Positions 5,306 to 60,679 of a stretch of DNA of 64,000 nt are shown piece after piece. The position numbers were made by a program, and so were the translations under genes. Under the pieces are notes generated by a model. That model worked only from the letters and a program-made list of their open reading frames with translations. It had not been told where the DNA came from and did no database searches. The DNA is taken from NCBI RefSeq assembly GCF_001618955.1, contig NZ_LVYV01000034.1, forward strand, positions 1 to 64,000, read 5' to 3'. How positions within the stretch are numbered: position 1 is the stretch's first letter; every line of letters starts with the position of its first letter. Source of the stretch: Tardiphaga robiniae. GTDB lineage: Bacteria; Pseudomonadota; Alphaproteobacteria; Rhizobiales; Xanthobacteraceae.

Positions 5306-5358
5306 TGATCTAGCCCCTTGCTTAGGTGATGAAATGTCGTGGCAATATGATCGACAGA

Positions 5359-5374
5359 TACAAGCCTCGTGCCA
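5359..5374 (-). promoter_or_regulatory. Candidate sigma-54 promoter for the permease gene
   Basis: Reading the minus strand, TGGCACG-AGGC-TTGTA. The -24 half is a perfect match to TGGCACG and the spacing is right. The -12 half has GT where GC is usual. A start about 12 bases downstream would give a leader of about 44 bases before the permease ATG at 5305. Confidence 0.6.
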
Positions 5375-5417
5375 GACGCCGCTGAAAGCCGTTTCGCCCC
5401 GGTGGTGTGGTGACCGG

Positions 5418-5433
5418 TGGCACGAAGGTTGCT
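5418..5433 (+). promoter_or_regulatory. Candidate sigma-54 promoter for uricase
   Basis: TGGCACG-AAGG-TTGCT matches the sigma-54 consensus (TGGCACG-N4-TTGCW) at every defined position, with GG and GC exactly ten bases apart. Transcription would start near 5444, leaving a leader of about 65 bases before the GTG at 5510. This also argues against the upstream TTG at 5459 as the uricase start. Confidence 0.8.
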
Positions 5434-5509
5434 CGATACTAAGCATTGCTGAAATATATTGCCCGGCGACTGGGGTTCCCTGGTCGCCAACACAGACTGG
5501 AGGTCGCGC

Positions 5510-34580: not shown

Positions 34581-35798
34581 GTGAGCGAGCCGCTGGTCAT
34601 CATTGGTAACGGAATGGCAGCGGCCCGGCTCGTGGACGAGTTGGCGAAATGCGCGCTCGGCCGTTACGCCATCGCCGTCATCGGAGACGAACCGCGGCTC
34701 GCCTATAATCGCGTATTGCTGTCGTCGGTGCTGGCTGGTGAGGCGACATCCCAGGAGATCGAGCTGAAGCCCGCTGCCTGGTGGCGCGACCGCGGCGTCA
34801 CGCTGAAATACCGCGCGACGGCGACCGCCATCGATATGGCCGCGCGCGAGGTCACGACATCCACCGGCAAGCATGTGTCGTTCTCAAAGCTCGTCATCGC
34901 CACCGGTTCATCTGCACTGCGGCTGCCGGTGCCCGGTGGTGATCTCAAGGGCGTGCATGTGTTCCGCGACAGTCGCGATGTGGACCTGCTGCTCGAACTC
35001 GCCACACAGAGGAAGCGCGTCGTCGTGGTCGGTGGCGGCCTGCTTGGCCTCGAAGCTGCCTATGGTCTCGCCAAGGCGGGGGCTGACGTCACACTGATCC
35101 ATCTGATGGACCGGCTGATGGAACGCCAGCTCGATGCACCCGCAGCGAACCTCCTGAAAACGCTGGTCGAGCGTAAGGGCGTAAGGATTTTGCTCAATGC
35201 CAATACGGCGCGTATTCATGGCAGCGATTGTGTCGAGAGCGTCGAGCTCGCCGATGGCCGCACGCTCGACGCCGATGCCGTGATCTTTGCCGCCGGCATC
35301 CGGCCGAATACATCGCTTGCCAAGGAAGCGGAAATCCCGGTCAATCGCGGCATTGTCGTCAACGACCAGATGGCAACCGGCACCGACGACGTCTTCGCAC
35401 TCGGCGAATGCGCCGAGCATCGCGGCACCTGCTATGGCCTCGTCGAGCCTGCCTACGAACAGGCCAGGGTGTTGGCGCGCCATCTAGCGGGCAAGGCTGC
35501 TGCCTATACGGGCAGCGTGCTCTCTACCAATCTCAAGGTCTCTGGCGTCAGTGTTTTCTCCGCTGGAGATTTCATGGCAGGCGAAGGCAGCGAGACGCTG
35601 CTGCTCAATGATGTCCGCCGCGGCACCTATAAGAAGCTGGTGATCGCAGATGGCGCGCTCACTGGCGCCGTGCTGGTCGGCGATACGCAGGATGCGCTGT
35701 GGTACCTCGAACTGATCCGCAGCGGCGCTGATATTTCCGATATCCGCGCCGAGATGATGTTCGGCCGCGCACTCGCCGTCCGCGCGGAGGCGGCGTGA
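34581..35798 (+). CDS. flp: FAD-dependent NAD(P)H oxidoreductase of the nas system (Flp/NasB-like)
   Basis: A 405-residue pyridine-nucleotide disulfide-type flavoprotein resembling the N-terminal half of NirB. FAD motif VIIGNGMAAARLVDEL at the start, NADH motif VVVVGGGLLGLEAAYGLA, and FALGECAEHRG for the second FAD contact. GTG start with AAGGA six bases upstream. It probably transfers electrons from NAD(P)H to the 2Fe-2S domain of the nitrate reductase encoded next, whose ATG overlaps its stop by one base. It lacks the sirohaem domain, so it is not a nitrite reductase. Confidence 0.9.
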   Translation: MSEPLVIIGNGMAAARLVDELAKCALGRYAIAVIGDEPRLAYNRVLLSSVLAGEATSQEIELKPAAWWRDRGVTLKYRATATAIDMAAREVTTSTGKHVSFSKLVIATGSSALRLPVPGGDLKGVHVFRDSRDVDLLLELATQRKRVVVVGGGLLGLEAAYGLAKAGADVTLIHLMDRLMERQLDAPAANLLKTLVERKGVRILLNANTARIHGSDCVESVELADGRTLDADAVIFAAGIRPNTSLAKEAEIPVNRGIVVNDQMATGTDDVFALGECAEHRGTCYGLVEPAYEQARVLARHLAGKAAAYTGSVLSTNLKVSGVSVFSAGDFMAGEGSETLLLNDVRRGTYKKLVIADGALTGAVLVGDTQDALWYLELIRSGADISDIRAEMMFGRALAVRAEAA

Positions 35799-38503
35799 TG
35801 AACGCGGTCGATCCGCATTTGCACGCCACGCGCACGACATGCCCTTACTGCGGCGTCGGTTGCGGTGTGCTGGCGACGCCGGACGGCAATGGCGGCGCAG
35901 CGATTGCAGGCGATCCCGCGCATCCCGCCAATCTCGGTCGGCTCTGCTCGAAAGGATCGGCGCTCGGCGAAACGTTGAGCCTCGACGAGCGCCTGCTGCA
36001 TCCGATGATGCGCAGCGACGATGGCGAGATGGCGCAGGTCGCCTGGGGCGATGCGCTGGATCATGTCGCCGAGGGATTTCAGAAGGTCGTCGCCGAACAT
36101 GGCCCGAGTGCCGTGGCATTTTATCTCTCCGGCCAGTTGCTGACCGAGGATTACTACGTCGCCAACAAGCTGATGAAGGGCTTTCTCGGCAGCGCCAATG
36201 TCGATACCAATTCGCGGCTGTGCATGGCCTCATCCGTGGCTGGCCACAAGCGTGCGTTCGGCGCGGACACCGTGCCGGGTTGCTATGAAGATCTTGATCA
36301 GGCCGATCTTCTGGTGCTGGTCGGCTCCAATGCCGCCTGGTGCCATCCGGTGCTGTATCAGCGCATGCTGGCCAACAAGCAGACGCGGGGCGCACGGATC
36401 GTCGTGATCGATCCACGCCGCACCGACACGGTTGGCGATGACGATCTGTTTCTCGGCCTGAAGCCGGGCACTGATACCGCGTTGTTCAGCGGGCTGTTCG
36501 CCTATCTCGCCGATAACGCGGCGCTCGATCGCAGCTATATCGATGAGCATACGTCAGGCTTTGACGACGCGCTGGTGCGGGCTAGAACCATCGCCGGCAG
36601 TGTGGTGGCGACAGCAAAGGCGACCGGACTCGACGAGATCGATGTCGCGACCTTCTTTCAGATGTTCAAGGCGACGCCGCGTGTGGTCACGCTGTATTCG
36701 CAGGGCGTCAACCAGTCGGCGCAGGGCACCGACAAGGTCAATGCGATCCTCAACTGCCATCTGGCGACCGGCCGCATCGGCAAGCCCGGCGCATCGCCGT
36801 TCTCGCTGACCGGCCAGCCGAATGCCATGGGCGGCCGCGAGGTCGGTGGCCTCGCCAACCAGCTCGCAGCCCATATGGGCTTCACGCCTGTCGATATCGA
36901 CCGTGTACGCCGGTTCTGGAAGGCGCCGCATATCGCCACCCATGAAGGCCTCAAGGCCGTGCAGATGTTCGAAGCCATCGGCCGCGGCGAGATTCGGGTG
37001 TTGTGGGTGATGGGTACCAATCCCGCGGTGTCGCTTCCGGACGCCGATGCCGTGCGCGCGGCGCTGAGCAAGCTCGATCTGTTCGTGGTGTCGGAGAATG
37101 TGCGCTCCAACGACACCGTGAATGCCGGTGCGCACGTGCTGCTGCCAGCACTGGCCTGGGGCGAAAAGTCCGGCACGGTGACCAATTCCGAACGGCGTGT
37201 GTCGCGGCAGCGCTCGTTCCTCCGCGCGCCGGGCGAGGCGCGACCGGATTGGTGGGCGCTGAGTGAAGTCGCCAAGCGCCTGGGTTATGGCGCGTCATTT
37301 GCCTACACATCGGCCGCCGAGATTTTTCGCGAGCACGCGGCCCTTTCGGCCTTCGAGAACAACGGTAACCGCGACTTCGATATCGGCGGGTTGATGAAGG
37401 TCTCGGACGAGGCCTTCGACACCATGGCCCCGGTGCAATGGCCGGTGCGCGAGGGCACGACGAAGCCGCAGGCGCGGTTCTTCGCCGATGGCCAATTCTA
37501 CGCCAATGACCGGCGCGCGCGTTTCATCGCGCCGGAGGCGCCGGAGCTGCGCACGCAAGTGTCGATCGAGCGCCCGCTACGTTTGAACACTGGCCGCGTT
37601 CGCGATCAGTGGCACACGATGACGCGCACGGGCCTCAGCCCGCGGCTCGGCCAGCATATTCCGGAGCCGTTCGTCGATATCCATCCCGACGATGCCGCGC
37701 AGTTCGGGATCGTCGATGGCGGCCATGCGCGGCTGACGACCGACTATGGCGAATGCGTGCTGAGGGTCATTGTCAGCGAGCGCCAGCAGCGCGGCATGCT
37801 GTTCGCGCCGATCCACTGGAACGACGAGACCGCGGGTTTCGCGCGTGTCGGTGGACTTGTTGCGCCGATCACCGACCCGTTCTCCGGTCAGCCCGAGAAC
37901 AAGGCGACGCCGGTGGCGATCGTGCCCGCGGCGTTTACACAGCGTGGCTTCGTGCTGTCGCGCATACCGCTGGAGATGCCGTTCGGCGTGCAATGGGCGC
38001 GCGTCGCGGTTACGGGCGGCGTCGGTTATCTGCTCTCGGACAGTACCGATGTCGAGACCTGGCAGAACTGGCTGAAGCCGTTGCTGGGCGATGATGCCGC
38101 TGAATACGAAGACGTGGGCCAAGGTGTGTATCGCGCAGTGTCGTTCAAGGATGACGGGATCGAGACCTGTCTGTTCATCGGCCCGACGGAAGGGGCGCTC
38201 TCCTGGGACGCCGTGAAGGAATTGTTCGCCGCCGAGACCGTGAGCGACGACCAGCGCCGTACACTGCTCTCTGGAAAGTCCGCAGATGGTGCTGCGAGTG
38301 CAGGGCCCATCGTCTGCGCCTGCTTCGGCGTCGGCCGCAACACCATCTGCGACGCAATTGCAGCGGGGGCTGGCACCGCGGCCGAGATCGGCGCCAAGCT
38401 CAAGGCCGGCACCAATTGCGGCTCGTGCATACCGGAGCTCAAGCGCCTGATAGCCACGAGCGAGGCGGAGCCGGATCAGCAGCGCAAGGTGGCGGCGAGT
38501 TAA
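35798..38503 (+). CDS. nasC: Assimilatory nitrate reductase, Mo-bis-MGD catalytic subunit (901 aa)
   Basis: Cytoplasmic reductase of nitrate to nitrite. An N-terminal 4Fe-4S motif CPYCGVGC...C (four cysteines within the first 50 residues), then the molybdopterin oxidoreductase domain (DTNSRLCMASSV with the Mo-ligand cysteine, MGTNPAVSLPDAD) and the MGD-binding C-terminal domain (RVRDQWHTMTRTG). The last 60 residues are a BFD-like 2Fe-2S module (VCACFGVG, TNCGSCIPELK). ATG at 35798 overlaps the flp stop. No nitrite reductase gene is in the window. Confidence 0.95.
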   Translation: MNAVDPHLHATRTTCPYCGVGCGVLATPDGNGGAAIAGDPAHPANLGRLCSKGSALGETLSLDERLLHPMMRSDDGEMAQVAWGDALDHVAEGFQKVVAEHGPSAVAFYLSGQLLTEDYYVANKLMKGFLGSANVDTNSRLCMASSVAGHKRAFGADTVPGCYEDLDQADLLVLVGSNAAWCHPVLYQRMLANKQTRGARIVVIDPRRTDTVGDDDLFLGLKPGTDTALFSGLFAYLADNAALDRSYIDEHTSGFDDALVRARTIAGSVVATAKATGLDEIDVATFFQMFKATPRVVTLYSQGVNQSAQGTDKVNAILNCHLATGRIGKPGASPFSLTGQPNAMGGREVGGLANQLAAHMGFTPVDIDRVRRFWKAPHIATHEGLKAVQMFEAIGRGEIRVLWVMGTNPAVSLPDADAVRAALSKLDLFVVSENVRSNDTVNAGAHVLLPALAWGEKSGTVTNSERRVSRQRSFLRAPGEARPDWWALSEVAKRLGYGASFAYTSAAEIFREHAALSAFENNGNRDFDIGGLMKVSDEAFDTMAPVQWPVREGTTKPQARFFADGQFYANDRRARFIAPEAPELRTQVSIERPLRLNTGRVRDQWHTMTRTGLSPRLGQHIPEPFVDIHPDDAAQFGIVDGGHARLTTDYGECVLRVIVSERQQRGMLFAPIHWNDETAGFARVGGLVAPITDPFSGQPENKATPVAIVPAAFTQRGFVLSRIPLEMPFGVQWARVAVTGGVGYLLSDSTDVETWQNWLKPLLGDDAAEYEDVGQGVYRAVSFKDDGIETCLFIGPTEGALSWDAVKELFAAETVSDDQRRTLLSGKSADGAASAGPIVCACFGVGRNTICDAIAAGAGTAAEIGAKLKAGTNCGSCIPELKRLIATSEAEPDQQRKVAAS

Positions 38504-45863: not shown

Positions 45864-47069
45864 TTACTTCTTCAGCAATGGGCATTTCGATTCAGAGACG
45901 GGCCGGAACGCGTCATCGCCCTTCACGGTCTTGACGATGTCGAGATAGTCCCAGGGCTCTTTGGATTCCGACGGCTTCTTGACGCGGGCCAGATACATGT
46001 CGCGGATGACGCGGCCGTCTTCGCGCAGTTTGCCGCCATGCACGAAGGTGTCCTCGATGGGCAGTTCGCGCATCTTGGCCATCACCTTGGCCGGATCGTC
46101 GGTGCCGGCAGCCTTGATGGCCTGGAGATAATGCAGCACCGAGCCATAGACGCCGGTCTGGATCATGGTCGGCATCACCTTGGTGCGTTCGTAGAATTTC
46201 TTCGACCAGGCGCGCGTCTTGTCGTCCATGTTCCAGTAGGACGCGGTTGTCAGGTATGTGCCCTGAGCCGCCTCCAGCCCGATGGCATGCACATCCGTGT
46301 CGAACATCAACAGGCCGACCAGCTTCTGGCCGCCTTTGACAAGGCCGAACTCGCCTGACTGCTTGATCGAATTGTCGGTGTCCTGGCCGGCATTGGCGAA
46401 GGCGACGACTTCGGCCTTCGAGTTCTGCGCCTGCAATGCGAAGGACGAGAAATCGGCGGTGTTGGTCGGATGACGAACGCCGCCCAGCACGGTGCCGCCG
46501 CTCGCCTTGATGAAGCGCGTCGCGTCCTGTTCAAGCTGATTGCCGAAGGCGTAGTCGGCGGTGATGAAGAACCATGACTTGCCGCCGCCGGCGACCACGG
46601 CAGAGGCCGTTACCTTCGCAAGCGCGTAGGTGTCGTAGGTGAAGTGGACCGTGTTGGGGCTGCACAGCTCATCCGTGAGCGTGCTTGCGCCAGGGCCGGA
46701 CAGCAGTGCGATCTTGTTGCGGTCCTTCGCCAGATTATGAACCGCGATGGCGATGGCGGAGTTCGGGATATCGACAACGGCGTCGACCTTGCCGGCGTCG
46801 AACCAGTTGCGCGCGATCTGGATGCCGACGTCAGACTTCATCTGATGATCGGCGCTGATGATCTCGATCGGTTTCCCGAGAACGGTCGGGCCGAATTCCT
46901 CGAGCGCCATCTTCGCGGCTTCAACCGATCCAGGGCCGCTGTTGTCGCGCCCCCAGCTTGAGAGATCGGTGAGAACGCCGATGCGAACGACGTCGTCGGA
47001 GACCTGAGCGGAAGCGGTGGATGTCCAAAGCGTGAGCGCGGCTGCGCACACCAGGAACTGGCGTGTCAT
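45864..47069 (-). CDS. Branched-chain amino acid-type ABC binding protein (401 aa)
   Basis: Periplasmic binding protein of the LivK-like (peripla_BP_6) family. Sec signal MTRQFLVCAAALTLWTSTAS with AQ-VS cleavage, then VVRIGVLTDLSSWGRDNSGP. No permease or ATPase gene follows, so its transporter is elsewhere. Members with this neighbourhood (flavoprotein, SDR, IclR) often bind aromatic or hydrophobic acids rather than amino acids. First gene of the presumed operon. A pair of direct repeats lies upstream. Confidence 0.9.
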   Translation of the reverse strand: MTRQFLVCAAALTLWTSTASAQVSDDVVRIGVLTDLSSWGRDNSGPGSVEAAKMALEEFGPTVLGKPIEIISADHQMKSDVGIQIARNWFDAGKVDAVVDIPNSAIAIAVHNLAKDRNKIALLSGPGASTLTDELCSPNTVHFTYDTYALAKVTASAVVAGGGKSWFFITADYAFGNQLEQDATRFIKASGGTVLGGVRHPTNTADFSSFALQAQNSKAEVVAFANAGQDTDNSIKQSGEFGLVKGGQKLVGLLMFDTDVHAIGLEAAQGTYLTTASYWNMDDKTRAWSKKFYERTKVMPTMIQTGVYGSVLHYLQAIKAAGTDDPAKVMAKMRELPIEDTFVHGGKLREDGRVIRDMYLARVKKPSESKEPWDYLDIVKTVKGDDAFRPVSESKCPLLKK

Positions 47070-47265: not shown

Positions 47266-48189
47266 CTATTGCCGTCTGTGGCTCGCATTCACCGCAATTG
47301 CCGCAGCCGCAGTACGGTTCTCGACGCCAAGTTTGGCGTAGATCTGTTCAAGATGCTTGTCGACGGTGCGCGGTGAGAGGCCGAGTATCTGCGCGATATC
47401 GCGGTTGCTCTTGCCCTTGCTGAGCCAGGACAGCACTTCGCCCTCGCGGCCGGTGAGGCCAAGCTCCTTGCTGAATTCGGCGGGAGCGGTTGGCGCGTTT
47501 TCCTTGGCGAGCCGCAGCAGGAATTCGTCGGACCCGACTTTCCCCATATATTGCAGACGCAGCAGCTCATTGCTCGGAAAGCCCGATGATGGTGTCGGCT
47601 TGGCGCCCGGCCGCTGCATCTGCTCGAGCCACTGCATCATGGCTGGTGGCAGCAGCAATTCATCATTGGGGGCGGCGATCAGGTGATCGCTGAGCAACTT
47701 CTGCGCCTGCGGTGTGGCCCACAGGATATTGCCCTTGCCGCTCACCGCGAGGAGGAAGCGTCCGGAGACATCGAGCGCGGTGCGCGCACTCTGCGTCAGC
47801 CGCGCGTTGGCGAGATGCACGCGGATCCGCGCCAGCATTTCCTCGATGATGATCGGCTTGGTGACGTAATCGACGCCGCCCGCCTCAAGCCCGCGCACGA
47901 TGTGTTCGGTCTCGGACAGACCGGTCATGAAAATCACGGGCACGTCGCCCAGGCCCGCGTCGCGCTTCAGCCGGCGACAGGTTTCGAAGCCGTCGATTCC
48001 CGGCATGACGGCATCCAGCAGGATGATGTCCGGCGTGATCTGTTCGACGATCCGCATCGCAGCGGCGCCGTCCATGGCCACCATCACGGTCATGCCGGCG
48101 CCGTCCAAGGCATCAGTTAGCAGCCGCAATGTTTCCGGCGAGTCATCTACCACCAGCGCGACGTCGCGTTTTTTCGATTCAGTGGTCAT
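47266..48189 (-). CDS. LuxR-type response regulator (REC-linker-HTH, 307 aa)
   Basis: Receiver domain in residues about 8-125 with acidic pair D15/D16, phospho-acceptor D59 (IILLDAVMPGIDG), T89 and K111 (YVTKP). A middle PAS-like stretch (FLLAVSGKGNILWATPQAQ) follows, then a LuxR HTH at about 243-300 (LTGREGEVLSWLSKGKSNRD, LSPRTVDKHLEQIYAKLGV). Its start overlaps the hybrid kinase stop by 11 bases, so the two are a cognate pair. Probable target: the divergent urt-fmd operon. Confidence 0.93.
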   Translation of the reverse strand: MTTESKKRDVALVVDDSPETLRLLTDALDGAGMTVMVAMDGAAAMRIVEQITPDIILLDAVMPGIDGFETCRRLKRDAGLGDVPVIFMTGLSETEHIVRGLEAGGVDYVTKPIIIEEMLARIRVHLANARLTQSARTALDVSGRFLLAVSGKGNILWATPQAQKLLSDHLIAAPNDELLLPPAMMQWLEQMQRPGAKPTPSSGFPSNELLRLQYMGKVGSDEFLLRLAKENAPTAPAEFSKELGLTGREGEVLSWLSKGKSNRDIAQILGLSPRTVDKHLEQIYAKLGVENRTAAAAIAVNASHRRQ

Positions 48190-51100
48190 AGGTGTACAGC
48201 GTCTTCAAGGTGGCCATGTATTGATCGAGGTCGAAGCGGTCGATCAGCGAACGCATCTGGGCGACGAAGTCGGCATGTTCGGGGTGTTCGTTGCCGATCT
48301 CGTCGAGCTTGAGCTGGATGGCGCGGATGTGCCCCATCTGCCCGAGGCTGATGAGTTCCTCCACATGATGCACCGGCGGTCGGGCGCCGCTGGTGGGCGT
48401 CCATTGCGGCAGAGGCGCCACTTCGTCGCGTTCGTATTGCCATTCGATCTTTAGGAGTTGTCCGATCTGTTCGATCAGCCGCGGCAGTTCGATCGGCTTC
48501 ATCAGGTAGCCGTCATGGAATGGCTGGGCGAGCGGCGTGCCATGGGCTTCCAACGCGCTAGCCGAGACCATCAGGATACGCGCCTGATGGTGGCCCGACG
48601 ACCGTAGCTTCTCGGCGACGGTCCATCCGTCCATACCGGCCATGGAAATATCCAGCAGGAACAGATCGGGGCGGCAATGCTGGGCGAGGCTGAGGCAGGC
48701 CTGGCCATCCGGCGCGCTCAGAAGGATGAAGCCCAGCGGCGTCAGCACCTGGCGCAAGAGGTCGCGCTGCGTTGGATCGTCGTCGGTGACGAGAATGGTC
48801 TTGCGCGCGCCGTGATAGCCATAGATCGGCGCGTCCACCGGCGCGATACGGGTGGGATTGGTCACCTCCGACAGCAGCATCTTGACGCGGAAGGTGCTGC
48901 CGGTGCCGACCTCGCTGGAGACGCGGATGTCGCCGCCCATCACGCCGGCGAGCAGTTTGGAAATCGTGAGGCCCAAACCTGTGCCGGTGTGCGGCTGCGC
49001 GGCGCCGAGCGCGCCGCGTTCGAACGGCGCGAAGATGCGTTCCAGATCGTCGGGACGAATGCCGGGTCCGGTATCGATAATCTCGAATTCAGCGACCGGG
49101 CTGCGATAATGGATCACGAACTGCACGCTGCCTGCTTGCGTGAACTTGATAGCGTTGGAGAGCAGGTTGATCAGGATCTGTCGCAACCGCTTCTCGTCGG
49201 CATAGACCACGGTCGGCAGAATGTTCGGCCGCCGGAACACGAAGTCGATGCCCTTGGCTGCGGCCTGCAGGCGGAACATGCCGACGAGCTGATCGAGGAA
49301 GTCGGTGAGGCGGACTTCGTCACGCGACAGATAGAGACGACCTGCCTCGATCTTGGAAATATCGAGAATGCCGTCGATCAGTCCGGAGAGATGATCGGCG
49401 CTGCGCTTGACCACGCGCACCTGATCGCGCGGGCGCGTCTGCAGGCTTTCGTCCTGCTCCAGGAGCTGCGCATAGCCACTGATGGCATTGAGCGGCGAGC
49501 GGAGCTCGTGGCTCAGGCCGACCACATAGCGGCTCTTGGCGAGGTTGGCGGATTCTGCGACCTCCTTGGCGCGCTGCAGTTCTGCATCGGTGCGCTTGTG
49601 CGCGTCGATTTCCTGCATCAGCAGGGTGGTCTGCCGCTTGGTCTCGGCTTCCGCGGCGCGACGGCTTTGCTTGGCCAGCACGAATAGCCATGCCACCACG
49701 CCGATGATGATCGCCAGCGCGAAGAACACTTTCCACAGCACTTCCGAGACCTGCGCACTGTCTCCCGGCGATGCAGCGGAGGTCTGCAGATAGATCAGTC
49801 CCAGCGTCAGGCCGACGAGACCGGCAGCAATCATGAACACGCCAAGATAATGGCCGAGCTGTGAATTGAGCCGGGCCAGGATCGGCTCCGGCAGCAATTT
49901 GCCGAACGTCGCCGACATCTGTGCGTCGATCCGCGCATGCGGCTTGCAGAGATCGTGGCAACGCGCATCGAGCGAGCAGCACAGTGAGCAGATCGGGCCG
50001 GCATAGGCCGGGCAATGCGCCATGTCCTCGGGCTCGAACGAATGTTCGCAGATACAGCACTGGATCGCTGCCATGTTCTGCCAGGCGCGCTTCGGCTTGC
50101 GGGCAATGTAGTATTTCCCACCTGTTGCGAAGGCGATGATGGGGGCGGTGGCGAGCGCGGTGATCAGCGCCACGAAAGGCGATAGCGCCTTGGCCGTGGG
50201 CCCGAACAGGCCATAGAAGGCGCTGACCGACATCAATGTCGCAGCTAGCATCGCGCCGACGCCGACCGGGTTGATGTCGTAGAGATGCGCGCGTTTGAAT
50301 TCCATCTGCTGCGGGCGCAGTCCGAGCGGCTTGTTGATCACGAGATCGGCGACCAGCGCGCCGACCCATGCAATGGCAACATTGGAATACAGCGCCAGCG
50401 TCTGCTCCAGCGCCTTGTAGACGCCGATCTCCATCAGCAGTAGCGCGACCAGCACGTTGAACACCAACCAGACCACGCGGCCGGGATGGCTGTGAGTGAG
50501 GCGCGAGAAGAAGTTCGACCAGGCGATCGAGCCTGCATAGGCGTTGGTGACGTTGATCTTGAGCTGCGACAGGATCACGAAGGTGCCGGTCAGTGCCAGC
50601 GCGAGATCGGGCTGGGACAACACATAGCGAAACGCTTCGAGATACATATGTGCGGGCTCGGCGGCGTGCTCGGCCGAAACGCCGTGGGTCAGTGCGAAAT
50701 AAGCGAGGAACGAGCCGGCCAGCAGCTTGATCGCGCCGACAATGATCCAGCCCGGGCCCGCGCACAGCAGCGCTACCCACCAGCTCGCACGCGAGTTGCG
50801 GCGGTCGCGCGGCAGGAAGCGCAGGAAGTCGACCTGTTCGCCGATCTGCGCGACCAGCGAGAATACGACCGAAGCGGCGGTGCCAAACAGCAGGAGATCG
50901 AGATGGCCGGCGGCGCTGCCGTGGTCGCCCGGAAATTTGGTCCAGGCCACGAAGGAGTCGCGGCTGGCATAGGCGATGGCCGCGAAAGGCAGCAGGTTGA
51001 GCACCAGCCAGATCGGCTGGGTCCAGAGCTGAAAACGGCTGATTAGCGTGATGCCGTGGGTCACCAGCGGGATGATGACCACGGCCGATATCAGGTAGCC

Positions 51101-51553
51101 GATGGGGCGTGGAATATCGAAACACATCTCCAGTGCCGAGGCGAGAATGACGGCCTCGATGGCGAAGAAGATGAAGGTGAAAGACGCATAAATCAGCGAG
51201 GTAACAGTCGAGCCGATATAGCCGAAACCGGCACCGCGGGTGAGGAGATCGATATCAATGCCGCATTTTGCGGCATAATACGCGATCGGCAATCCGCAGC
51301 AGAAGATGATGACGCTGACCACCAGGATCGCTGCCGTGGCGTTGGTCATGCCGTAATTGATGGTGATGGTGCCGCCGACGGCCTCGAGGGCGAGAAACGA
51401 AATAGCGCCCAATGCCGTGTTGGCGACCCGCGCGGCGGACCAGCGCCTAGCGCTCTTCGCCGTAAAGCGGAGTGCGTAATCCTCCAGGGTCTGGTTGGCG
51501 ACCCATTGATTGTACTGGCGTCTCACGCGGTCGATACGCTGCCGCCCTGCCAC
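48179..51553 (-). CDS. Hybrid histidine kinase with NCS1-transporter-like sensor domain (1124 aa)
   Basis: Residues about 1-485 resemble a purine-cytosine/NCS1 permease: 12 or so membrane segments, an N-terminal RRQYNQWVANQTLEDYALRF, and GSIAWSNFFSRLTHSHPGR as in these transporters. Residues 499-536 are Cys-rich (C499, C500, C502, C514, C522, C525, C526, C532, C536), probably metal-binding. Two more membrane segments (about 567-590 and 605-627) and a coiled coil lead to the kinase core: H682 in LSHELRSPLNAI, N-box LINLLSNAIKF, DTGPGI, GTGLGL. A receiver domain follows (D968, K1019) and a helical tail of about 100 residues. Probably senses a small amide, urea or nucleobase and signals to the LuxR regulator. 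Confidence 0.92.
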   Translation of the reverse strand: MAGRQRIDRVRRQYNQWVANQTLEDYALRFTAKSARRWSAARVANTALGAISFLALEAVGGTITINYGMTNATAAILVVSVIIFCCGLPIAYYAAKCGIDIDLLTRGAGFGYIGSTVTSLIYASFTFIFFAIEAVILASALEMCFDIPRPIGYLISAVVIIPLVTHGITLISRFQLWTQPIWLVLNLLPFAAIAYASRDSFVAWTKFPGDHGSAAGHLDLLLFGTAASVVFSLVAQIGEQVDFLRFLPRDRRNSRASWWVALLCAGPGWIIVGAIKLLAGSFLAYFALTHGVSAEHAAEPAHMYLEAFRYVLSQPDLALALTGTFVILSQLKINVTNAYAGSIAWSNFFSRLTHSHPGRVVWLVFNVLVALLLMEIGVYKALEQTLALYSNVAIAWVGALVADLVINKPLGLRPQQMEFKRAHLYDINPVGVGAMLAATLMSVSAFYGLFGPTAKALSPFVALITALATAPIIAFATGGKYYIARKPKRAWQNMAAIQCCICEHSFEPEDMAHCPAYAGPICSLCCSLDARCHDLCKPHARIDAQMSATFGKLLPEPILARLNSQLGHYLGVFMIAAGLVGLTLGLIYLQTSAASPGDSAQVSEVLWKVFFALAIIIGVVAWLFVLAKQSRRAAEAETKRQTTLLMQEIDAHKRTDAELQRAKEVAESANLAKSRYVVGLSHELRSPLNAISGYAQLLEQDESLQTRPRDQVRVVKRSADHLSGLIDGILDISKIEAGRLYLSRDEVRLTDFLDQLVGMFRLQAAAKGIDFVFRRPNILPTVVYADEKRLRQILINLLSNAIKFTQAGSVQFVIHYRSPVAEFEIIDTGPGIRPDDLERIFAPFERGALGAAQPHTGTGLGLTISKLLAGVMGGDIRVSSEVGTGSTFRVKMLLSEVTNPTRIAPVDAPIYGYHGARKTILVTDDDPTQRDLLRQVLTPLGFILLSAPDGQACLSLAQHCRPDLFLLDISMAGMDGWTVAEKLRSSGHHQARILMVSASALEAHGTPLAQPFHDGYLMKPIELPRLIEQIGQLLKIEWQYERDEVAPLPQWTPTSGARPPVHHVEELISLGQMGHIRAIQLKLDEIGNEHPEHADFVAQMRSLIDRFDLDQYMATLKTLYTYDH

Positions 51554-51619: not shown

Positions 51620-51658
51620 GCGGTGCAGTATACGCGATCTCGCGTATCCGTGCACCGC
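51620..51658. promoter_or_regulatory. Large dyad between the sensor kinase and urtA
   Basis: GCGGTGCA (51620-51627) and TGCACCGC (51651-51658) form a perfect outer pair, and ATACGCGA (51630-51637) with TCGCGTAT (51640-51647) a perfect inner pair around a TC centre. This 39-base symmetric site lies 58 bases upstream of urtA and 67 upstream of the kinase gene. It could bind the LuxR-type regulator, or NtrC (compare TGCACY...RGTGCA), or form an RNA hairpin. Confidence 0.65.
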
Positions 51659-51715
51659 ACAAGTTCAGCAATGCTTGCCTCACCAATAGGCGTACTCGAA
51701 ACCAGTGGGGTTGAA

Positions 51716-52975
51716 ATGTCAGACGAGAAGAAACCGGGCTTGCACTCGCCATTGCGGCGTAAACTGTTGATGGGCATGGCGGCTTTGCCGGCAATATCGC
51801 TGCTTCCGCGCACATCTTTTGCGCAGGCGCCGGCCACCTCGGCCATCAACACCACGGGCCTCGCGGTTACCGATACGGAAGTCACCGTCGGCATCCTGCA
51901 TTCCGTCACCGGTACGATGGCCATCTCGGAAACCGGCTCGGTACAGGCTGAAAAGCTCGCCATCGATCAGATCAACGCCATGGGCGGCGTGCTCGGCCGC
52001 AAGATCAAGTTCATCCAGGAAGACGGTGCCTCGGACTGGCCGACCTTCGCTGAAAAGGCCAAGAAGCTGCTGGTCAACGACAAGGTCGCTGCCATCATGG
52101 GCTGCTGGACCTCGGCCTCCCGCAAGGCGGTGCTGCCGGTCATGGAACAATATAACGGCATGCTCTACTATCCGACCTTTTATGAAGGTCTCGAGCAGTC
52201 CAAGAACGTGATCTATACCGGTCAGGAAGCTACCCAGCAGATCCTCGCCGGCCTCGACTGGGTCTCCAAGACCAAGAACGGCAAGAGCTTCTATCTGATC
52301 GGCTCGGACTATATCTGGCCGCGCACGTCGATGAAGATCGCCCGCAAGCACATCGAGGGCAAGCTCGGCGGCAAGGTGTCGGGCGAAGAATACTTCCCAC
52401 TCGGCCACACCCAGTTCAACTCGGTGATCAACAAGATCAAGCTGACCAAGCCGGACGTGATCTATGCGGCAGTGGTCGGTGGCTCCAATGTCGCCTTCTA
52501 CAAGCAGCTCAAGGCGGCCGGCATCGACCTGTCGAAGCAGACCCTGCTGACCATCTCGGTCACCGAGGACGAGATCGACGGCATCGGCGGCGAGAACATC
52601 GCGGGCGCCTATGCCTGTATGAAGTACTTCCAGTCGCTCGATAATCCGAACAACAAGGAATTCGTCGCCGCCTTCAAGAAGATGTGGGGCGAGAAGACCG
52701 TGATCGGCGACGTGACGCAGGCCGCCTATCTCGGCCCGTGGCTCTGGAAAATGACGGTCGAAAAGGCCGGCTCCTTCGATATCGACAAGATCGCGCCCGC
52801 GTCTGCCGGCATCGAATTCACCAAGGCGCCGGAAGGCTACGTCAAGGTCCATCCGAACCACCATCTGTGGTCGAAGGCCCGCGTCGGCCAGGCCCAGCTC
52901 GATGGGCAGTTCAAGGTGGTCTACGAGACGCCCGAACTGATCGAGCCGGATCCGTTCCCCAAAGGCTACCAGTAA
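51716..52975 (+). CDS. urtA: Urea/short-chain amide ABC binding protein UrtA
   Basis: Periplasmic binding protein of the UrtA/FmdD-type branch of the LivK family. The N-terminal signal contains RRKLLMGMAALPAIS and a FAQ-AP cleavage site. The mature part begins EVTVGILHSVTGTMAISET, and CWTSASRKAVLPVMEQYNGM is diagnostic of urea/amide binders. I use the ATG at 51716 with GGGG about seven bases before it; the longer frame to 51623 crosses the dyad. A GCGGAG/CTCCGC hairpin follows the stop (52994-53010), as often found between binding-protein and permease genes. Confidence 0.93.
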   Translation: MSDEKKPGLHSPLRRKLLMGMAALPAISLLPRTSFAQAPATSAINTTGLAVTDTEVTVGILHSVTGTMAISETGSVQAEKLAIDQINAMGGVLGRKIKFIQEDGASDWPTFAEKAKKLLVNDKVAAIMGCWTSASRKAVLPVMEQYNGMLYYPTFYEGLEQSKNVIYTGQEATQQILAGLDWVSKTKNGKSFYLIGSDYIWPRTSMKIARKHIEGKLGGKVSGEEYFPLGHTQFNSVINKIKLTKPDVIYAAVVGGSNVAFYKQLKAAGIDLSKQTLLTISVTEDEIDGIGGENIAGAYACMKYFQSLDNPNNKEFVAAFKKMWGEKTVIGDVTQAAYLGPWLWKMTVEKAGSFDIDKIAPASAGIEFTKAPEGYVKVHPNHHLWSKARVGQAQLDGQFKVVYETPELIEPDPFPKGYQ

Positions 52976-53108: not shown

Positions 53109-54035
53109 ATGTTCGGCGACTATTCGATTGGTGACCTTGGCGCCATCTTCGCAATGCAGGGCTTTGCCGGCCTGATCCTGTTCTCGGTCTACGTGCTGAT
53201 GGCCCTGGGCCTCGCCATCATCTTCGGCCAGATGGGCGTCATCAACATGGCGCATGGCGAATTCATGATCCTCGGCGCTTACGTCACCTGGCTGACGTCG
53301 AACTTCTTCCAGTCGCATCTGCCGTCGCTGTTCTCGGGCTACTTCTTCGTCGCCATGGTCCTCGCCTTCATCGCCTCCGGTGCGCTGGGGATGTTGGTCG
53401 AATGGGGGCTGATACGGCATCTCTACAAGCGCCCGCTCGACACGCTGCTGGCGACCTGGGGCCTCAGCCTGATCCTGCAGCAGGCCTATCGTTCGGTGTT
53501 CGGCGCCCGTGAAGTCGGCGTCGAACTGCCGCAATGGATGATGGGCTCCAAGCAGGTCACCGATACGATCGAAGTGCCGATCAACGGCATCTTCGTGATG
53601 GTGCTGACGCTGGGGATCACCATGGTGGTGGCCTACATCATGTACAAGTCGCGTTGGGGTCGTCAGGTTCGTGCCGTGGTGCAGAACCGCGTGATGGCCG
53701 GCGCCGTCGGCATCAATACCGAGAAGGTTGACCGCTATACGTTCGGTCTCGGCTGCGGCATCGCCGGGATCGCCGGCTCCGCCTTCACCATGATCGGCTC
53801 GACCGGGCCGACCTCCGGCCAGCTCTACATCGTCGATACGTTCCTTGTCGTGGTGTTCGGCGGCGCGGCCAGCCTGTTCGGGACCATTGCCTCGGCCTTC
53901 ACCATCTCCCAGGCGCAGTCGACCATGGAGTTCTTCATGTCTGGCTCGATGGCCAAGGTGCTGACGCTGCTCACCATCGTCGGAATCCTGATGATCCGGC
54001 CGCAGGGCCTGTTCGCCCTCAAGGTCCGCAAGTAA
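53109..54035 (+). CDS. urtB: Urea/amide ABC permease UrtB
   Basis: LivH-type inner-membrane permease of 308 residues, with about eight hydrophobic segments. GLAIIFGQMGVINMAHGEFM near the N-terminus is the UrtB/LivH signature, and GLGCGIAGIAGSAFTMIGST lies in the second half. GACGGAGGAC precedes the ATG. It forms the heterodimeric channel with UrtC, encoded 36 bases downstream. Confidence 0.94.
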   Translation: MFGDYSIGDLGAIFAMQGFAGLILFSVYVLMALGLAIIFGQMGVINMAHGEFMILGAYVTWLTSNFFQSHLPSLFSGYFFVAMVLAFIASGALGMLVEWGLIRHLYKRPLDTLLATWGLSLILQQAYRSVFGAREVGVELPQWMMGSKQVTDTIEVPINGIFVMVLTLGITMVVAYIMYKSRWGRQVRAVVQNRVMAGAVGINTEKVDRYTFGLGCGIAGIAGSAFTMIGSTGPTSGQLYIVDTFLVVVFGGAASLFGTIASAFTISQAQSTMEFFMSGSMAKVLTLLTIVGILMIRPQGLFALKVRK

Positions 54036-54071: not shown

Positions 54072-55217
54072 ATGATCAATTCACGCTTCTTCAACCGCTC
54101 GGAGCTTCTCGGTTTCCTGTCGCTGCTGCTGCTGCTCGCGGTGATCCTGCCGCTGTTTCTCGATGTGTTTCGTCTCAACCTCGTCGCCAAATATCTGACC
54201 TATGCCTTCGTCGCCCTGGGCCTTGTGATGTGCTGGGGTTATGGCGGCATTCTCAGCCTCGGACAGGGCGTGTTCTTCGGCCTCGGCGGCTACTGCATGG
54301 CGATGTTCCTCAAGCTGGAAGCCTCCAGCGTCGCCAACACCAAGATCCAGTCGACCCCCGGCATTCCGGATTTCATGGACTGGAACCAGATCACCGCGCT
54401 GCCGCTGTTCTGGAAGCCGTTCCACTCGCTGACGCTCACCATAATCGCCATACTCGTGGTGCCGACGCTGCTGGCCTTCATCATTGGCGCGGCGATGTTC
54501 AAGCGGCGTGTCGGCGGCGTCTATTTCGCCATCATCACCCAGGCCATCGCGGCCATCGCCACCATCCTGATCATCGGCCAGCAGGGCTACACCGGCGGCA
54601 TCAATGGCATGACCGACCTGCGCACGCTGAACGGCTGGGACATCCGCACCGACCACGCCAAGGTCATTCTCTACTTCTTTGAAGTGTTCGTGCTGTTTGC
54701 TTGCATCATCGCGGCGCAATTCATCCGGCTGACCAAGCTTGGCCGCATCCTGGTGGCGATGCGCGAGCAGGAGGACCGTGTTCGCTTCTCCGGCTACAGC
54801 GTCGCCAACTTCAAGATCTTCGCCTTCTGTGCTGCGGCGATGTTCGCAGCGATTGGCGGCGCCATGTTCACGCTGCAGATCGGTTTCATGTCGCCGTCCT
54901 TTGTCGGCATCGTGCCGTCGATCGAGATGGTGATCTACACGGCGGTTGGCGGCCGCATGTCCATCTTCGGCGCCGTCTACGGCACGCTCTTGGTGAACTA
55001 CGCCAAGACGATGCTGTCGGAATCTTTCCCGGAACTCTGGCTGTTCGGCCTCGGCGGCTTGTTCATCGCCGTGGTGTTGTTCTTCCCCAATGGCCTGTCC
55101 GGTATCTGGCGCGATCACGTGGCGCGCCACATCGATCGCCTGATCGCCATGCGCTCGTCTAAATCCAAGAAGGCCTGGGCCATCAAATCCGCCGCCGACG
55201 GCGCGCCGGCCGAGTAA
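54072..55217 (+). CDS. urtC: Urea/amide ABC permease UrtC
   Basis: LivM-type permease of 381 residues with about ten hydrophobic segments. YGGILSLGQGVFFGLGGYCM is the typical early motif, QGYTGGINGMTDL is a UrtC marker, and AMREQEDRVRFSGYSVANFK is the cytoplasmic coupling loop. It ends in a basic tail. The urtD gene starts 9 bases after its stop. Confidence 0.94.
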   Translation: MINSRFFNRSELLGFLSLLLLLAVILPLFLDVFRLNLVAKYLTYAFVALGLVMCWGYGGILSLGQGVFFGLGGYCMAMFLKLEASSVANTKIQSTPGIPDFMDWNQITALPLFWKPFHSLTLTIIAILVVPTLLAFIIGAAMFKRRVGGVYFAIITQAIAAIATILIIGQQGYTGGINGMTDLRTLNGWDIRTDHAKVILYFFEVFVLFACIIAAQFIRLTKLGRILVAMREQEDRVRFSGYSVANFKIFAFCAAAMFAAIGGAMFTLQIGFMSPSFVGIVPSIEMVIYTAVGGRMSIFGAVYGTLLVNYAKTMLSESFPELWLFGLGGLFIAVVLFFPNGLSGIWRDHVARHIDRLIAMRSSKSKKAWAIKSAADGAPAE

Positions 55218-55226
55218 GGGGACATC

Positions 55227-55982
55227 ATGCTCATCGGACATCAGCCCAAAGAGTTTTTGCTTGCGGTCGAAGGGCTCACCGTTTCCTTCGACGGCTTCAA
55301 GGCGGTCAACGATCTCTCCTTCTATGTGGAGGAGAACGAGATCCGCGTGATCATCGGCCCCAATGGCGCGGGCAAGACCACCGTCCTCGATCTGATCTGC
55401 GGCAAGACCAAAGCTACCTCGGGTTCGGTGCAGTTTCGGGGCACGGAACTGACCAAGCTGAAGGAAAACCAGATCGTGCAGGCCGGCGTTGGCCGCAAGT
55501 TCCAGACGCCGTCTGTCTATGACGATCTGACGGTGTTCGAAAATCTGGAGATCTCCTATCCGCGCGGTCGCTCGGTGTTCGGTTCGCTGATGTTCAAGCG
55601 CGATGCCGCGGTGCGCGAGCGCGTCGAGGAAGTCGCCGAGATGATCTTCCTGAAGGATCGTCTCAACATGTATGCCGACGTGCTTTCGCATGGCCAGAAA
55701 CAGTGGCTCGAGATCGGCATGCTGCTGATTCAGGATCCGGACCTCTTGATGCTCGACGAACCGGTCGCCGGCATGAGCGTCAGCGAGCGCGTCAAGACTG
55801 CGGAGCTGCTCAATACCATCATCAAGAATCGCTCGGTGCTGGTGATCGAACACGACATGAAATTCGTCGAGGACATCGCTCACAAGGTGACCGTGCTGCA
55901 TCAGGGACAGATCCTGTCCGAAGGCACCATGGAGAAGGTCCAGAACGACCCGAAGGTCATTGAAGTTTATCTGGGTCATTGA
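55227..55982 (+). CDS. urtD: Urea/amide ABC ATPase UrtD
   Basis: LivG-type ATPase of 251 residues. Walker A GPNGAGKTT, Q-loop region GRKFQTPSVYDDLTVFENL, signature LSHGQKQWLEIGMLL (the SHGQ variant is typical of UrtD), Walker B LLMLDEPVAGMS and H-loop IEHDMKFV. It heterodimerises with UrtE, encoded 10 bases downstream. Confidence 0.94.
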   Translation: MLIGHQPKEFLLAVEGLTVSFDGFKAVNDLSFYVEENEIRVIIGPNGAGKTTVLDLICGKTKATSGSVQFRGTELTKLKENQIVQAGVGRKFQTPSVYDDLTVFENLEISYPRGRSVFGSLMFKRDAAVRERVEEVAEMIFLKDRLNMYADVLSHGQKQWLEIGMLLIQDPDLLMLDEPVAGMSVSERVKTAELLNTIIKNRSVLVIEHDMKFVEDIAHKVTVLHQGQILSEGTMEKVQNDPKVIEVYLGH

Positions 55983-55992
55983 GGAGATCATC

Positions 55993-56682
55993 ATGCTCGC
56001 TATCAACGATCTCCACGTCGCTTACGGCCAGAGCGAAGTTCTGCATGGCCTGAATGTCTCGGTGCAGCCCAACGAAATCGTGGCCATCATGGGCCGCAAC
56101 GGCATGGGCAAGACCACGCTGATGAAATCGCTGATGGGCATCGTGCCGACCAAGTCGGGCTCGGTGACCATGGAAGGCAAGGAGCTCGGTGCGCTGAAGA
56201 GCTATGAGCGCGTCGCGCGCGGCCTCGCCTACGTGCCGCAGGGCCGCATGATCTTCTCCCATATGACGGTGAAGGAGAATATCGAGACCGGCCTTGTCGC
56301 CTCCGGCGAGAAGGAAGTGCCCGGCGATCTCTATGAGCTGTTTCCGGTGCTGCTCGAAATGAAAGGCCGTCGCGGCGGCAATCTCTCCGGCGGCCAACAG
56401 CAGCAGCTTGCCATTGCGCGGGCGCTCGCGACCAAGCCGAAGGTTCTGCTGCTGGACGAACCCACCGAAGGCATCCAGCCGTCGATCATCAAGGACATGG
56501 CGCGGACGCTGAAGCACATCCGCGACACCAAGGGCCTGTCGATCATCGTCTCCGAACAGGTGCTGAGTTTCGCGCTCGATGTCGCCGACCGCGTGCTGGT
56601 GATCGAAAACGGCGAGATCGTTCGCGACGAAGCCCGCGAAGGTATCGATGCCGCGCAGATCGCTAAATATCTGTCCGTCTAA
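55993..56682 (+). CDS. urtE: Urea/amide ABC ATPase UrtE
   Basis: LivF-type ATPase of 229 residues. Walker A GRNGMGKTT, signature NLSGGQQQQLAIARAL, Walker B VLLLDEPTEGIQPS, and VSEQVLSFALDVADRVLVIE in place of a classic H-loop histidine, as is usual for UrtE. I chose the ATG at 55993 with GAGGAG before it over the upstream in-frame start at 55960, which lies inside urtD. Confidence 0.93.
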   Translation: MLAINDLHVAYGQSEVLHGLNVSVQPNEIVAIMGRNGMGKTTLMKSLMGIVPTKSGSVTMEGKELGALKSYERVARGLAYVPQGRMIFSHMTVKENIETGLVASGEKEVPGDLYELFPVLLEMKGRRGGNLSGGQQQQLAIARALATKPKVLLLDEPTEGIQPSIIKDMARTLKHIRDTKGLSIIVSEQVLSFALDVADRVLVIENGEIVRDEAREGIDAAQIAKYLSV

Positions 56683-56730: not shown

Positions 56731-57960
56731 ATGCCAGATACACTGATCAAGGTCGACCTCACGCAATCGGCTTACGACAACGACATGATTCACAACCGCT
56801 GGCATTCGGACATTCCCATGGTCGCATGGGTCAATCCCGGCGATGACTTCATCGTCGAGACCTATGACTGGACCGGCGGCTTCATCAAGAACAACGACAG
56901 CGCCGACGACGTGCGCGATATCGATCTGTCGATCGTACACTTCCTGTCCGGCCCGATCGGCGTCAAGGGTGCGGAGCCCGGCGATCTTCTGGTTGTCGAT
57001 CTGCTCGATGTCGGCCCGATGAAAGATTCGCTGTGGGGCTTCAACGGTTTCTTCTCCAAGCAGAACGGCGGCGGGTTCCTGACTGACCACTTCCCGGAAG
57101 CGCAGAAGTCGATCTGGGATTTCAAGGGCATGTACACCTCGTCGCGCCACATCCCGGGCGTGAATTTCGCCGGCCTGATCCATCCCGGCCTGATCGGCTG
57201 TCTGCCCGATCCGAAACTGCTCGCCACCTGGAACGAGCGCGAGACCGCGCTGATCGCCACCAATCCGACCCGCATTCCCGGCCTCGCCAATCCACCATTC
57301 GGCCCGACTGCCCATATGGGCCGGCTGAAGGGTGAGGCGAAGGAGAAGGCTGCGGCCGAAGGCGCGCGCACCGTGCCGCCGCGCGAACACGGCGGCAATT
57401 GCGACATCAAGGATCTGTCGCGTGGCTCCAAGGTCTATTTCCCGGTCTATGTGCCCGGCGGCGGTCTCTCGATGGGCGACCTGCACTTCTCGCAGGGCGA
57501 CGGCGAAATCACCTTCTGCGGCGCCATCGAAATGGCCGGCTGGCTGCACATCAAGGTCGATGTCATCAAGGACGGCGTGTCGAAATACGGCATCAAGAAC
57601 CCGGTGTTCAAGCCATCGCCGATGACGCCGAACTACAACGACTATCTGATCTTCGAAGGCATCTCTGTCGACGAGCAGGGCAAGCAGCATTATCTCGACG
57701 TGCACATCGCCTATCGTCAGGCCTGTCTGAATGCCATCGAATATCTGAAGAAGTTTGGCTATTCCGGTGCGCAGGCCTATTCGATTCTCGGCACGGCGCC
57801 GGTTCAGGGCCACATCTCCGGCGTTGTCGATGTACCCAACGCCTGCGCCACGCTGTGGTTGCCGACGCAGATCTTCGACTTCGATATCAATCCGTCATCG
57901 GCTGGGCCCGTCAAACACATCAAGGGCGACATCCAGATGCCGCTCTCGCCCGACAAGTAA
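56731..57960 (+). CDS. fmdA: Formamidase (FmdA/AmdA family, 409 aa)
   Basis: Hydrolyses formamide to formate and ammonia. Length and sequence match the FmdA family (about 407 residues in Methylophilus). Characteristic stretches are NRWHSDIPMVAWVNPGDDF, FLSGPIGVKGAEPGDLLVVD and REHGGNCDIKDLSRGSKVYF, plus SMGDLHFSQGDGEITFCGAI. It follows urtE by 48 bases with AAGGGGAG before the ATG, so the importer and enzyme work together: the importer likely carries formamide or urea, and this enzyme releases ammonia. A terminator follows. Confidence 0.95.
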   Translation: MPDTLIKVDLTQSAYDNDMIHNRWHSDIPMVAWVNPGDDFIVETYDWTGGFIKNNDSADDVRDIDLSIVHFLSGPIGVKGAEPGDLLVVDLLDVGPMKDSLWGFNGFFSKQNGGGFLTDHFPEAQKSIWDFKGMYTSSRHIPGVNFAGLIHPGLIGCLPDPKLLATWNERETALIATNPTRIPGLANPPFGPTAHMGRLKGEAKEKAAAEGARTVPPREHGGNCDIKDLSRGSKVYFPVYVPGGGLSMGDLHFSQGDGEITFCGAIEMAGWLHIKVDVIKDGVSKYGIKNPVFKPSPMTPNYNDYLIFEGISVDEQGKQHYLDVHIAYRQACLNAIEYLKKFGYSGAQAYSILGTAPVQGHISGVVDVPNACATLWLPTQIFDFDINPSSAGPVKHIKGDIQMPLSPDK

Positions 57961-58039: not shown

Positions 58040-58381
58040 ATGCCGGTCTATGAATATCTTTGCGACGATTGCGGCCCCTTCACCGACATGCGGCCGATGG
58101 CGGAATGCGATGACCCGCAGGACTGTCCGCATTGCGCGACGCAGGCGCCGCGCGTGATCCTGACTGCGCCCGCGTTCTTCTGCATGCCCTCCGACAAGCG
58201 CAAGGCCCACGCCACCAATGAACGCAGCCGCAATGCGCCGAAGACATCGGCGGAATACAAGGCGTCGCATGGGGCCGGTTGCGGCTGCTGTTCCGGCAAG
58301 AAGCCGTCGCGGCTGGTGAAGCAGACCCGCTCGGGCGCCAAGAGCTTCCCGACGGCGCGGCCGTGGATGATCAGCCACTGA
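58040..58381 (+). CDS. fmdB: FmdB-family zinc-ribbon protein (113 aa)
   Basis: Small putative regulatory protein with an N-terminal zinc ribbon: MPVYEYLCDDCG and DCPHCA supply the two CxxC pairs. The rest is basic and probably disordered, with a Cys-rich GCGCCSG stretch. FmdB was first described as a positive regulator of formamidase genes in Methylophilus, and its position after fmdA fits. The intergenic terminator suggests it is expressed at a lower level than the enzyme. Confidence 0.9.
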   Translation: MPVYEYLCDDCGPFTDMRPMAECDDPQDCPHCATQAPRVILTAPAFFCMPSDKRKAHATNERSRNAPKTSAEYKASHGAGCGCCSGKKPSRLVKQTRSGAKSFPTARPWMISH

Positions 58382-60431: not shown

Positions 60432-60679
60432 TGATGAGCTGTTGATCGAAACGGGTCGTCCCCACCGCTCGATTTTCCCTGAGCCATGGCGCTTGCGGTA
60501 GGTGCATCCGAATGTGTTGCACATCTTTCCGCAAACATGGACGATGATACCCGGCATATTTCCGGCTTTATCGCGGCTTAATAATAACAGCTCTTCCGTG
60601 CAATTTTTCCGTGAGTTTTAAACATTCCGAACGTTGCACGCGCTATGCTTTCGATATCTCGTCATATGTTGGTATCCTT

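Follow-up and report, generated by a model that had tools for sequence, protein, structure and literature searches.

An NCS1-derived transporter unit fused to a cysteine-rich module and a hybrid histidine kinase in Tardiphaga robiniae: a candidate receptor for urea and short-chain amides

What does a histidine kinase sense when its N-terminal half resembles a whole membrane transporter, and which genes would it control? The question is raised by an open reading frame (ORF) of Tardiphaga robiniae, whose genome measures 6.36 Mb and which counts Bradyrhizobium and Afipia among its close named relatives. The ORF is located in a stretch of 64,000 nucleotides of contig NZ_LVYV01000034.1 (the window), where the genes for a LuxR-type regulator, a Urt-type ABC importer and a formamidase are its neighbours (Table 1). 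With a probability of roughly 0.6, we read its product as an NCS1-derived receptor kinase for urea and short-chain amides, which would switch on the operon urtABCDE-fmdA-fmdB via the regulator.

The sensor half is of the NCS1 type according to four tests: profile comparison, a bridging transporter, structure and a tree. A profile of 66 sensor-half sequences aligned with one of 29 NCS1 proteins at an hhalign value of 99.5% (E 9e-22, 457 columns), and a repeat with Mhp1 as the master row gave 98.7% (E 2e-16, 386 columns). The values for SLC5 (SSF, 0.16%), NCS2 (0.32%) and BCCT (0.07%) lent these identities no support; as a yardstick, NCS1 against SSF reached 97.4% in the same run, whereas NCS1 against BCCT itself gave just 0.05%, so that the BCCT control has little power. 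An AlphaFold (AF2) model of residues 1-660 (mean pLDDT 81.9, pTM 0.82) retrieved CodB or Mhp1 at all of ranks 1-5 of the PDB in Foldseek (E 5.7e-8 to 1.1e-6; TM-score up to 0.79 by target length), with other LeuT-fold families following at weaker E-values, and hydropathy together with Foldseek showed a LeuT-type fold of 12 transmembrane segments (TMs). The bridge is a stand-alone transporter of 497 amino acids (aa) at locus L295, which matches PF02133 (36.4 bits against a cut-off of 23.5) and can be aligned to residues 21-488 of the sensor half at 28-30% identity. In the tree it groups with all 15 kinases put in (support 1.0), and no other stand-alone protein falls into that group. Within the sampled tree, the fusion of an NCS1 transporter with a Cys-rich module and a kinase of the histidine type appears to have happened once.

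Direct searches weigh against this assignment. Residues 1-607, searched as a single protein, had no Pfam or PDB sequence match even at E 10, PF02133 is absent from the 25 families that Pfam listed for the 66 sensor-half members, and a HMMER profile search of the PDB found no NCS1 protein for the sensor half. The sole PDB row of that search was a RING finger (E 5, residues 493-524). Pfam gave 0 families for the window's own sensor half, PF02133 included, and was empty for residues 482-608. The original prediction had staked itself beforehand on the NCS1-likeness of the N-terminal half and, with the profile and structure searches now run, it has survived.

The C-terminal half is the HisKA-HATPase-REC kinase that had been predicted. 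The sole Pfam matches of the protein all fall within residues 673-1030 (HisKA 673-738, HATPase_c 786-893, Response_reg 920-1030), and the H-box, N-box, G1, G2 and receiver acid motifs are all intact, which makes the protein a hybrid histidine kinase. Hydropathy revealed 12 segments across residues 41-475, followed by the two additional membrane segments expected after the cysteine cluster (562-580 and 609-627); a further hydrophobic segment (936-954) falls inside the receiver domain. An HPt identity of the C-terminal tail was set aside because an alignment of 80 sequences showed no invariant His. The same architecture is found in orthologues from alpha-, beta- and gammaproteobacteria, so it is not due to chance.

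Pocket residues were mapped on Mhp1 by alignment (confidence 9), and the roles assigned to the kinase positions are those which we take the Mhp1 residues to have (Na2 site for Ser312 and Thr313, substrate site for Gln121). Gln121 corresponds to Glu133, Ser312 to Lys332, Thr313 to Ile333 and Trp117 to Phe129, while both TM8 asparagines are retained (Asn314 as Asn334, Asn318 as Asn337); no counterpart could be assigned in the alignment to Mhp1 Gly219 or Trp220. Glu133, Lys332, Ile333, Asn334 and Asn337 are invariant in 39/39 family sequences, four of them from a sister class, and Glu133, Lys332, Asn334 and Asn337 are invariant in 80/80 sequences from genome contigs, although the count for Lys332 partly reflects the search itself, which used two patterns, one of them including this residue. 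The 39-sequence and phylum-level sets came from whole-protein searches, and among the 36 phylum-level loci Lys332 is substituted solely in L295 (Arg). Because Ser312/Thr313 are replaced by Lys332/Ile333, the Na+ site of Mhp1 is not preserved. Of the predicted complete nucleobase/NCS1 transporter the NCS1 ancestry stands, with one correction: since its pocket residues are not those of Na+-coupled Mhp1, the sensor half is better described as derived from NCS1 transporters than as an ordinary one. At residue 129, the counterpart of Mhp1 Trp117, all 60 sequences with a closer UrtA (that of the window among them) have Phe, and 12 of the 15 with a more distant UrtA have Leu. This suggests a possible ligand-specificity switch; the UrtA groups also differ in phylogeny, and because of this confounding the residue is not used as proof of specificity.

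Matches were found in 47/149 family genomes (one a fragment) and in 59/398 phylum genomes (six only weak, 25-33%, and one just a 50-residue piece). A search of genome contigs detected at least 586 relatives, of which the best 80 were kept and, after one fragment had been dropped, 79 loci surveyed; as these are the best-scoring ones, remoter relatives may show less consistent linkage. A relative of the regulator follows the kinase in 72/79 loci. UrtA is encoded in 74/79, on the strand opposite to the kinase in 74/74, and four of the five loci without it end at most 364 bases upstream of the kinase. FmdA accompanies 44 of the 59 loci with a closer UrtA (at least 65% identity) and 0/15 with a UrtA of 30-60% identity. 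Two observations speak against the linkage: L093 is a true exception with 7.9 kb upstream and no urtA, and 15/59 closer-UrtA loci show no FmdA in range; among the loci surveyed, some contigs end before the fmdA position. The Urt proteins of two tested distant-UrtA loci (L152, L160) pass urea-transporter models, and the urea model for UrtA is passed by the window's protein as well. UreC is in range in 1/15 distant-UrtA loci and near three more kinase copies (L296, L297 and L298; 71-76% identity).

A sister class of about 885 aa (L052-L055 and L300) shares the sensor half and the Cys module and has no receiver domain. FmdA stands beside its kinases in 5/5 loci, and no Urt relative was detected at E 1e-20 in the available stretches of these five. 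L300 additionally encodes an OmpR-type regulator and, as a protein of its own, a REC-HisKA-HATPase. L295 adjoins a carbon-nitrogen hydrolase, a Peripla_BP_5 (AmiC/UrtA-like) protein and an AmiR/ANTAR protein, an amide context; its two diagnostic residues are Glu and Arg, and it is perhaps an unstudied amide or nitrile transporter. Urea and small amides are the theme common to the kinase neighbourhoods, and it is on account of formamidase, AmiE-type amidase, urease, the Urt importers and the surroundings of L295 that the ligand would be sought in this class.

An importer encoded so regularly next door bears on two other readings. The sensor half might still be a working transporter whose own substrate uptake is coupled to the kinase, that is, flux sensing as proposed for CbrA, and this would suit the complete 12-TM NCS1-like unit and the finding that the membrane unit is more window-like than the kinase core in 50/53 distant loci. 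CbrA, too, has a lysine at the Na2 site: its Lys196 projects into that site, with a proposed role in driving proton coupling, and histidine uptake by CbrA is powered by the proton motive force (PMC13022988). We nevertheless regard flux sensing as unlikely, because a second importer seems unneeded where an ABC importer is encoded alongside in 74/79 loci and because the Na2-site Ser/Thr are lost, though an H+-coupled mode would be possible. Alternatively, the transporter half could bind no ligand and sense loaded UrtA or the activity state of the importer. That the kinase is linked with two sequence types of urt genes would fit this, but the invariant pocket (the four residues conserved in 80/80) and the five sister-class loci with FmdA and no Urt relative make it improbable.

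As predicted, nine Cys lie within 38 residues (499-536), eight of them invariant with the spacing C-x2-C-x11-C-x7-C-x2-CC-x5-C-x3-C; the module is, however, not "inserted", as it lies after the 12-TM unit and not within it. The eight Cys are kept in 39/39 sequences of the family search, 80/80 of the genome contigs search and all 35 kinases of the 36 phylum-level loci, three sets that overlap in part, and the module is absent from the stand-alone L295. Counted from the 12 TMs, it should face the cytoplasm. Its model (mean pLDDT 79.5, pTM 0.60) shows a beta-hairpin followed by a short helix, a predicted fold resembling RING/PHD/FYVE treble clefs with weak, non-significant matches, and the module is probably a two-zinc structural module under the membrane domain. 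The Foldseek result counts against this (best E 0.82, none at 0.001). Metal or redox as the main input, through labile Zn or Fe-S in this module with the transporter half as a mere scaffold, would agree with the eight invariant Cys, the CC pair and the putative cytoplasmic side, but is the least probable of the readings considered, as the predicted hairpin and helix with their weak treble-clef matches point to a structural zinc fold and the cysteines are matched in invariance by several pocket residues.

A candidate control site was found between the kinase and urtA. Gapped-word counts in 38 diverse upstream regions gave words common to up to 21 regions, compared with 7-9 in three shuffled sets, and from these the general palindrome TATACGTCAWWTGACGTATA of 20 bp. 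In 70 of the 77 kinase upstream regions its score exceeded 10.5, the 99th percentile of the shuffles; the palindrome matrix had been built from these same regions. In three of the seven low-scoring loci (L152, L172 and L128) a site stands beside a displaced urtA. A matrix made from 52 distant loci detected sites above 10 in 21/24 held-out loci versus 5/702 control stretches. The palindrome was also the top match in two plasmid loci outside the training set, L303 of Klebsiella (24.0, next 7.5) and L304 of Shinella (23.1, next 5.6), though for the latter Rhizobium loci were inside. Over whole loci, 54/70 strong sites lie before the kinase, and the remaining 16 include those beside the displaced urtA of L152, L172 and L128. 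Against a regulatory role of the palindrome stand the 16/70 strong sites located elsewhere, the best of 1540 shuffled regions with a score of 21.4 (exceeded by 58/77 real regions), and the core ATACG-N8-CGTAT, which occurs at 2 places in the genome, one of them this intergenic region, versus 1 for the reversed control. Moreover, the 52-locus matrix gives the window's own palindrome 6.7, behind two other sites of the window with 8.7 and 8.1, a low score because this lineage has the variant ATACGC...GCGTAT. A scan revealed no sigma-70-type site in the kinase/urtA intergenic region. Extra palindromes 5-7.5 kb upstream of the kinase (L129, L130, L131, L136, L138, L157, L161, L163 and L166) perhaps precede other genes of the same pathway. 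Together, the divergent synteny with urtA and the shared palindrome support the predicted coupling to an amide/urea importer.

In the preferred reading of a receptor kinase, the fusion of an NCS1-lineage transporter, the Cys module and a histidine kinase would have yielded a receptor for urea or short-chain amides. The ligand would be bound in the pocket by Glu133, Asn334 and Asn337, with Lys332 replacing Na+, and its binding would switch the transporter half between an outward-open and an inward-open state. This movement would be relayed by the Cys module and the helix pair to the kinase, which would control the co-encoded LuxR-type regulator, presumably by phosphotransfer; the regulator could then bind the palindrome at 51629-51648 and drive urtABCDE-fmdA-fmdB, whose products would take up and hydrolyse the amide. 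More tentatively, and with somewhat less than even chances in our estimate, these kinases would form a second independent transceptor-kinase lineage, marked by Lys in the sodium site, Glu in the substrate site and a two-zinc finger clutch, and carried as a self-contained mobile module, also on conjugative Klebsiella plasmids.

Sensor-half relatives are present in 525 of 72,556 PLSDB plasmid records, 342 of them named Klebsiella. The Klebsiella detail rests on one record, L303, a Klebsiella variicola plasmid typed conjugative. It carries urtABCDE and a gene annotated as formamidase, whose product is 38% identical to AmiE-type amidase, with the kinase divergent and transposase genes flanking the locus on both sides. 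This kinase, annotated merely as 'ATP-binding protein', retains the eight Cys, Glu133 and Lys332, and the locus holds the palindrome and a stretch 45% identical to the regulator. A preprint on the CG307 lineage deals with a urea transport locus that was acquired and includes formamidase (PMC13060141), and the terms 'histidine kinase' and 'two-component' do not occur in its main text, as far as this was available; we infer that this locus is of the L303 type. In the more tentative reading, kinase, regulator, palindrome, urt genes and amidase would form a mobile unit, and the kinase would be the unrecognised switch of the urea-transport locus acquired by Klebsiella.

Transporter-kinase fusions as such are already known, as the original prediction had stated for the SLC5 type: CbrA and CrbS are SLC5/STAC histidine kinases, CrbS being a hybrid paired with a LuxR-family regulator (PMC13022988, PMC5715377). 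The window kinase likewise fuses a LeuT-fold transporter to a histidine kinase and, like CrbS, is a hybrid with a LuxR-type regulator; the inverted repeat needed by the LuxR-family CrbR (PMC5715377) parallels the palindrome. In contrast to CbrA and CrbS, its transporter family is NCS1 and its neighbours are amide/urea genes, and the eight-Cys module and helix pair stand where CbrA has STAC. Because the SLC5 test failed, it is no SLC5/STAC member, though it would function in a similar way. With Mhp1 and CodB it shares the fold and the 12 TMs, and with Mhp1 the two TM8 asparagines; it differs from Mhp1 in the Na2 residues (Lys/Ile), Gln121 (Glu) and Trp117 (Phe or Leu), and from both in being fused to a kinase and lying below Pfam detection.

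Short-chain amide/urea uptake with formamidase links the window to the fmd cluster of Methylophilus methylotrophus, which is induced by formamide and urea, and to urtABCDE-fmdA(-fmdB) of Pseudomonas and Bradyrhizobium (PMC10781810, PMC3098086, PMC13209695). Unlike those clusters as described in the available parts, for which no transporter-type sensor is named, the window encodes one. A hybrid histidine kinase and LuxR regulator are marked beside such an operon in PMC13296017, where the N-terminal half is undescribed in the accessible text. In line with the prediction, no description of an NCS1-type histidine kinase was found in the available portions of the literature searched, which lay mostly outside subscription journals, and the records inspected annotate these kinases only as 'ATP-binding protein', 'response regulator', or ArcB-like or hybrid kinase; what appears to be new is the NCS1 type with a Cys module. 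The reading proposed here would name a likely regulator of organic-nitrogen uptake in rhizobia, pseudomonads and marine bacteria; the plasmid-borne Klebsiella urea transport locus may have the same regulator. How transporter movement becomes kinase signalling is an open question even for CbrA (PMC13022988), and a second LeuT-fold fusion with another coupling element, one intergenic palindrome and available candidate ligands would make it testable.

Table 1. Features of the kinase locus; positions are those of the window unless a locus is named.
Feature	Position	Strand	Basis or remark
Response regulator, REC + LuxR/GerE HTH, 307 aa	47266..48189	-	Pfam; ORF overlaps kinase by 11 bp
NCS1-type transporter-fused hybrid histidine kinase, 1124 aa	48179..51553	-	GTG start; ORF, Pfam, profile, model, Foldseek
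C-terminal tail, residues 1040-1124, weakly conserved	48182..48436	-	alignment
Receiver domain, D968 in LLDI	48464..48796	-	Pfam, motif check
HATPase_c	48875..49198	-	Pfam
HisKA, phospho-acceptor H682 in SHELRSP	49340..49537	-	Pfam, motif check
Two further membrane helices leading to signalling helix, residues 562-630	49664..49870	-	AF2 model, hydropathy
Cys module, residues 497-540	49934..50065	-	Cys 499, 502, 514, 522, 525, 526, 532 and 536 invariant
12-TM NCS1-like sensor half, residues 1-495	50069..51553	-	hhalign, AF2, Foldseek
Lys332, counterpart of Mhp1 Ser312 (Na2 site)	50558..50560	-	invariant 39/39; 35/36 at phylum level
Glu133, counterpart of Mhp1 Gln121 (substrate site)	51155..51157	-	invariant 80/80, 36/36
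Outer dyad enclosing the palindrome, GCGGTGCA / TGCACCGC	51620-51627 / 51651-51658		
Palindrome TATACGCGATCTCGCGTATC, candidate regulator site	51629..51648	.	upstream of likely urtA start 51716
urtA-like binding protein	51623..52975	+	TIGR03407 543.7 bits, cut-off 492.75; likely ATG 51716 by inspection
urtB-like permease	53109..54035	+	TIGR03409 406.9 bits, cut-off 250.3
urtC-like permease	54072..55217	+	operon position; 67% identical to annotated UrtC of L303
urtD-like ATPase	55227..55982	+	70% identical to annotated UrtD of L303
urtE-like ATPase	55960..56682	+	ABC_tran; 62% identical to annotated UrtE of L303
fmdA formamidase	56731..57960	+	NF045496 768.6 bits, cut-off 500
fmdB-type zinc-ribbon protein with RPWMISH domain	58040..58381	+	TIGR02605 and NF053663 above cut-off
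Stand-alone NCS1 relative	L295:5949-7442		

The operon urtABCDE-fmdA-fmdB runs divergently from the kinase and regulator genes. Just past the regulator, a second binding protein (Peripla_BP_6) is encoded at 45864-47069, of which a relative was found in just 2/79 related loci. Further genes of the window encode a xanthine/uracil-type permease (3911-5809), a xanthine-dehydrogenase-type subunit (21178-23505), an NMT1_2 binding protein (30356-31795) and a nitrate-reductase-like molybdopterin oxidoreductase with a BFD domain (35795-38503). By its gene content, the window looks like a nitrogen-scavenging island. Downstream of the urt-fmd operon, a MHYT-PAS-GGDEF-EAL protein is encoded at 60611-63097.

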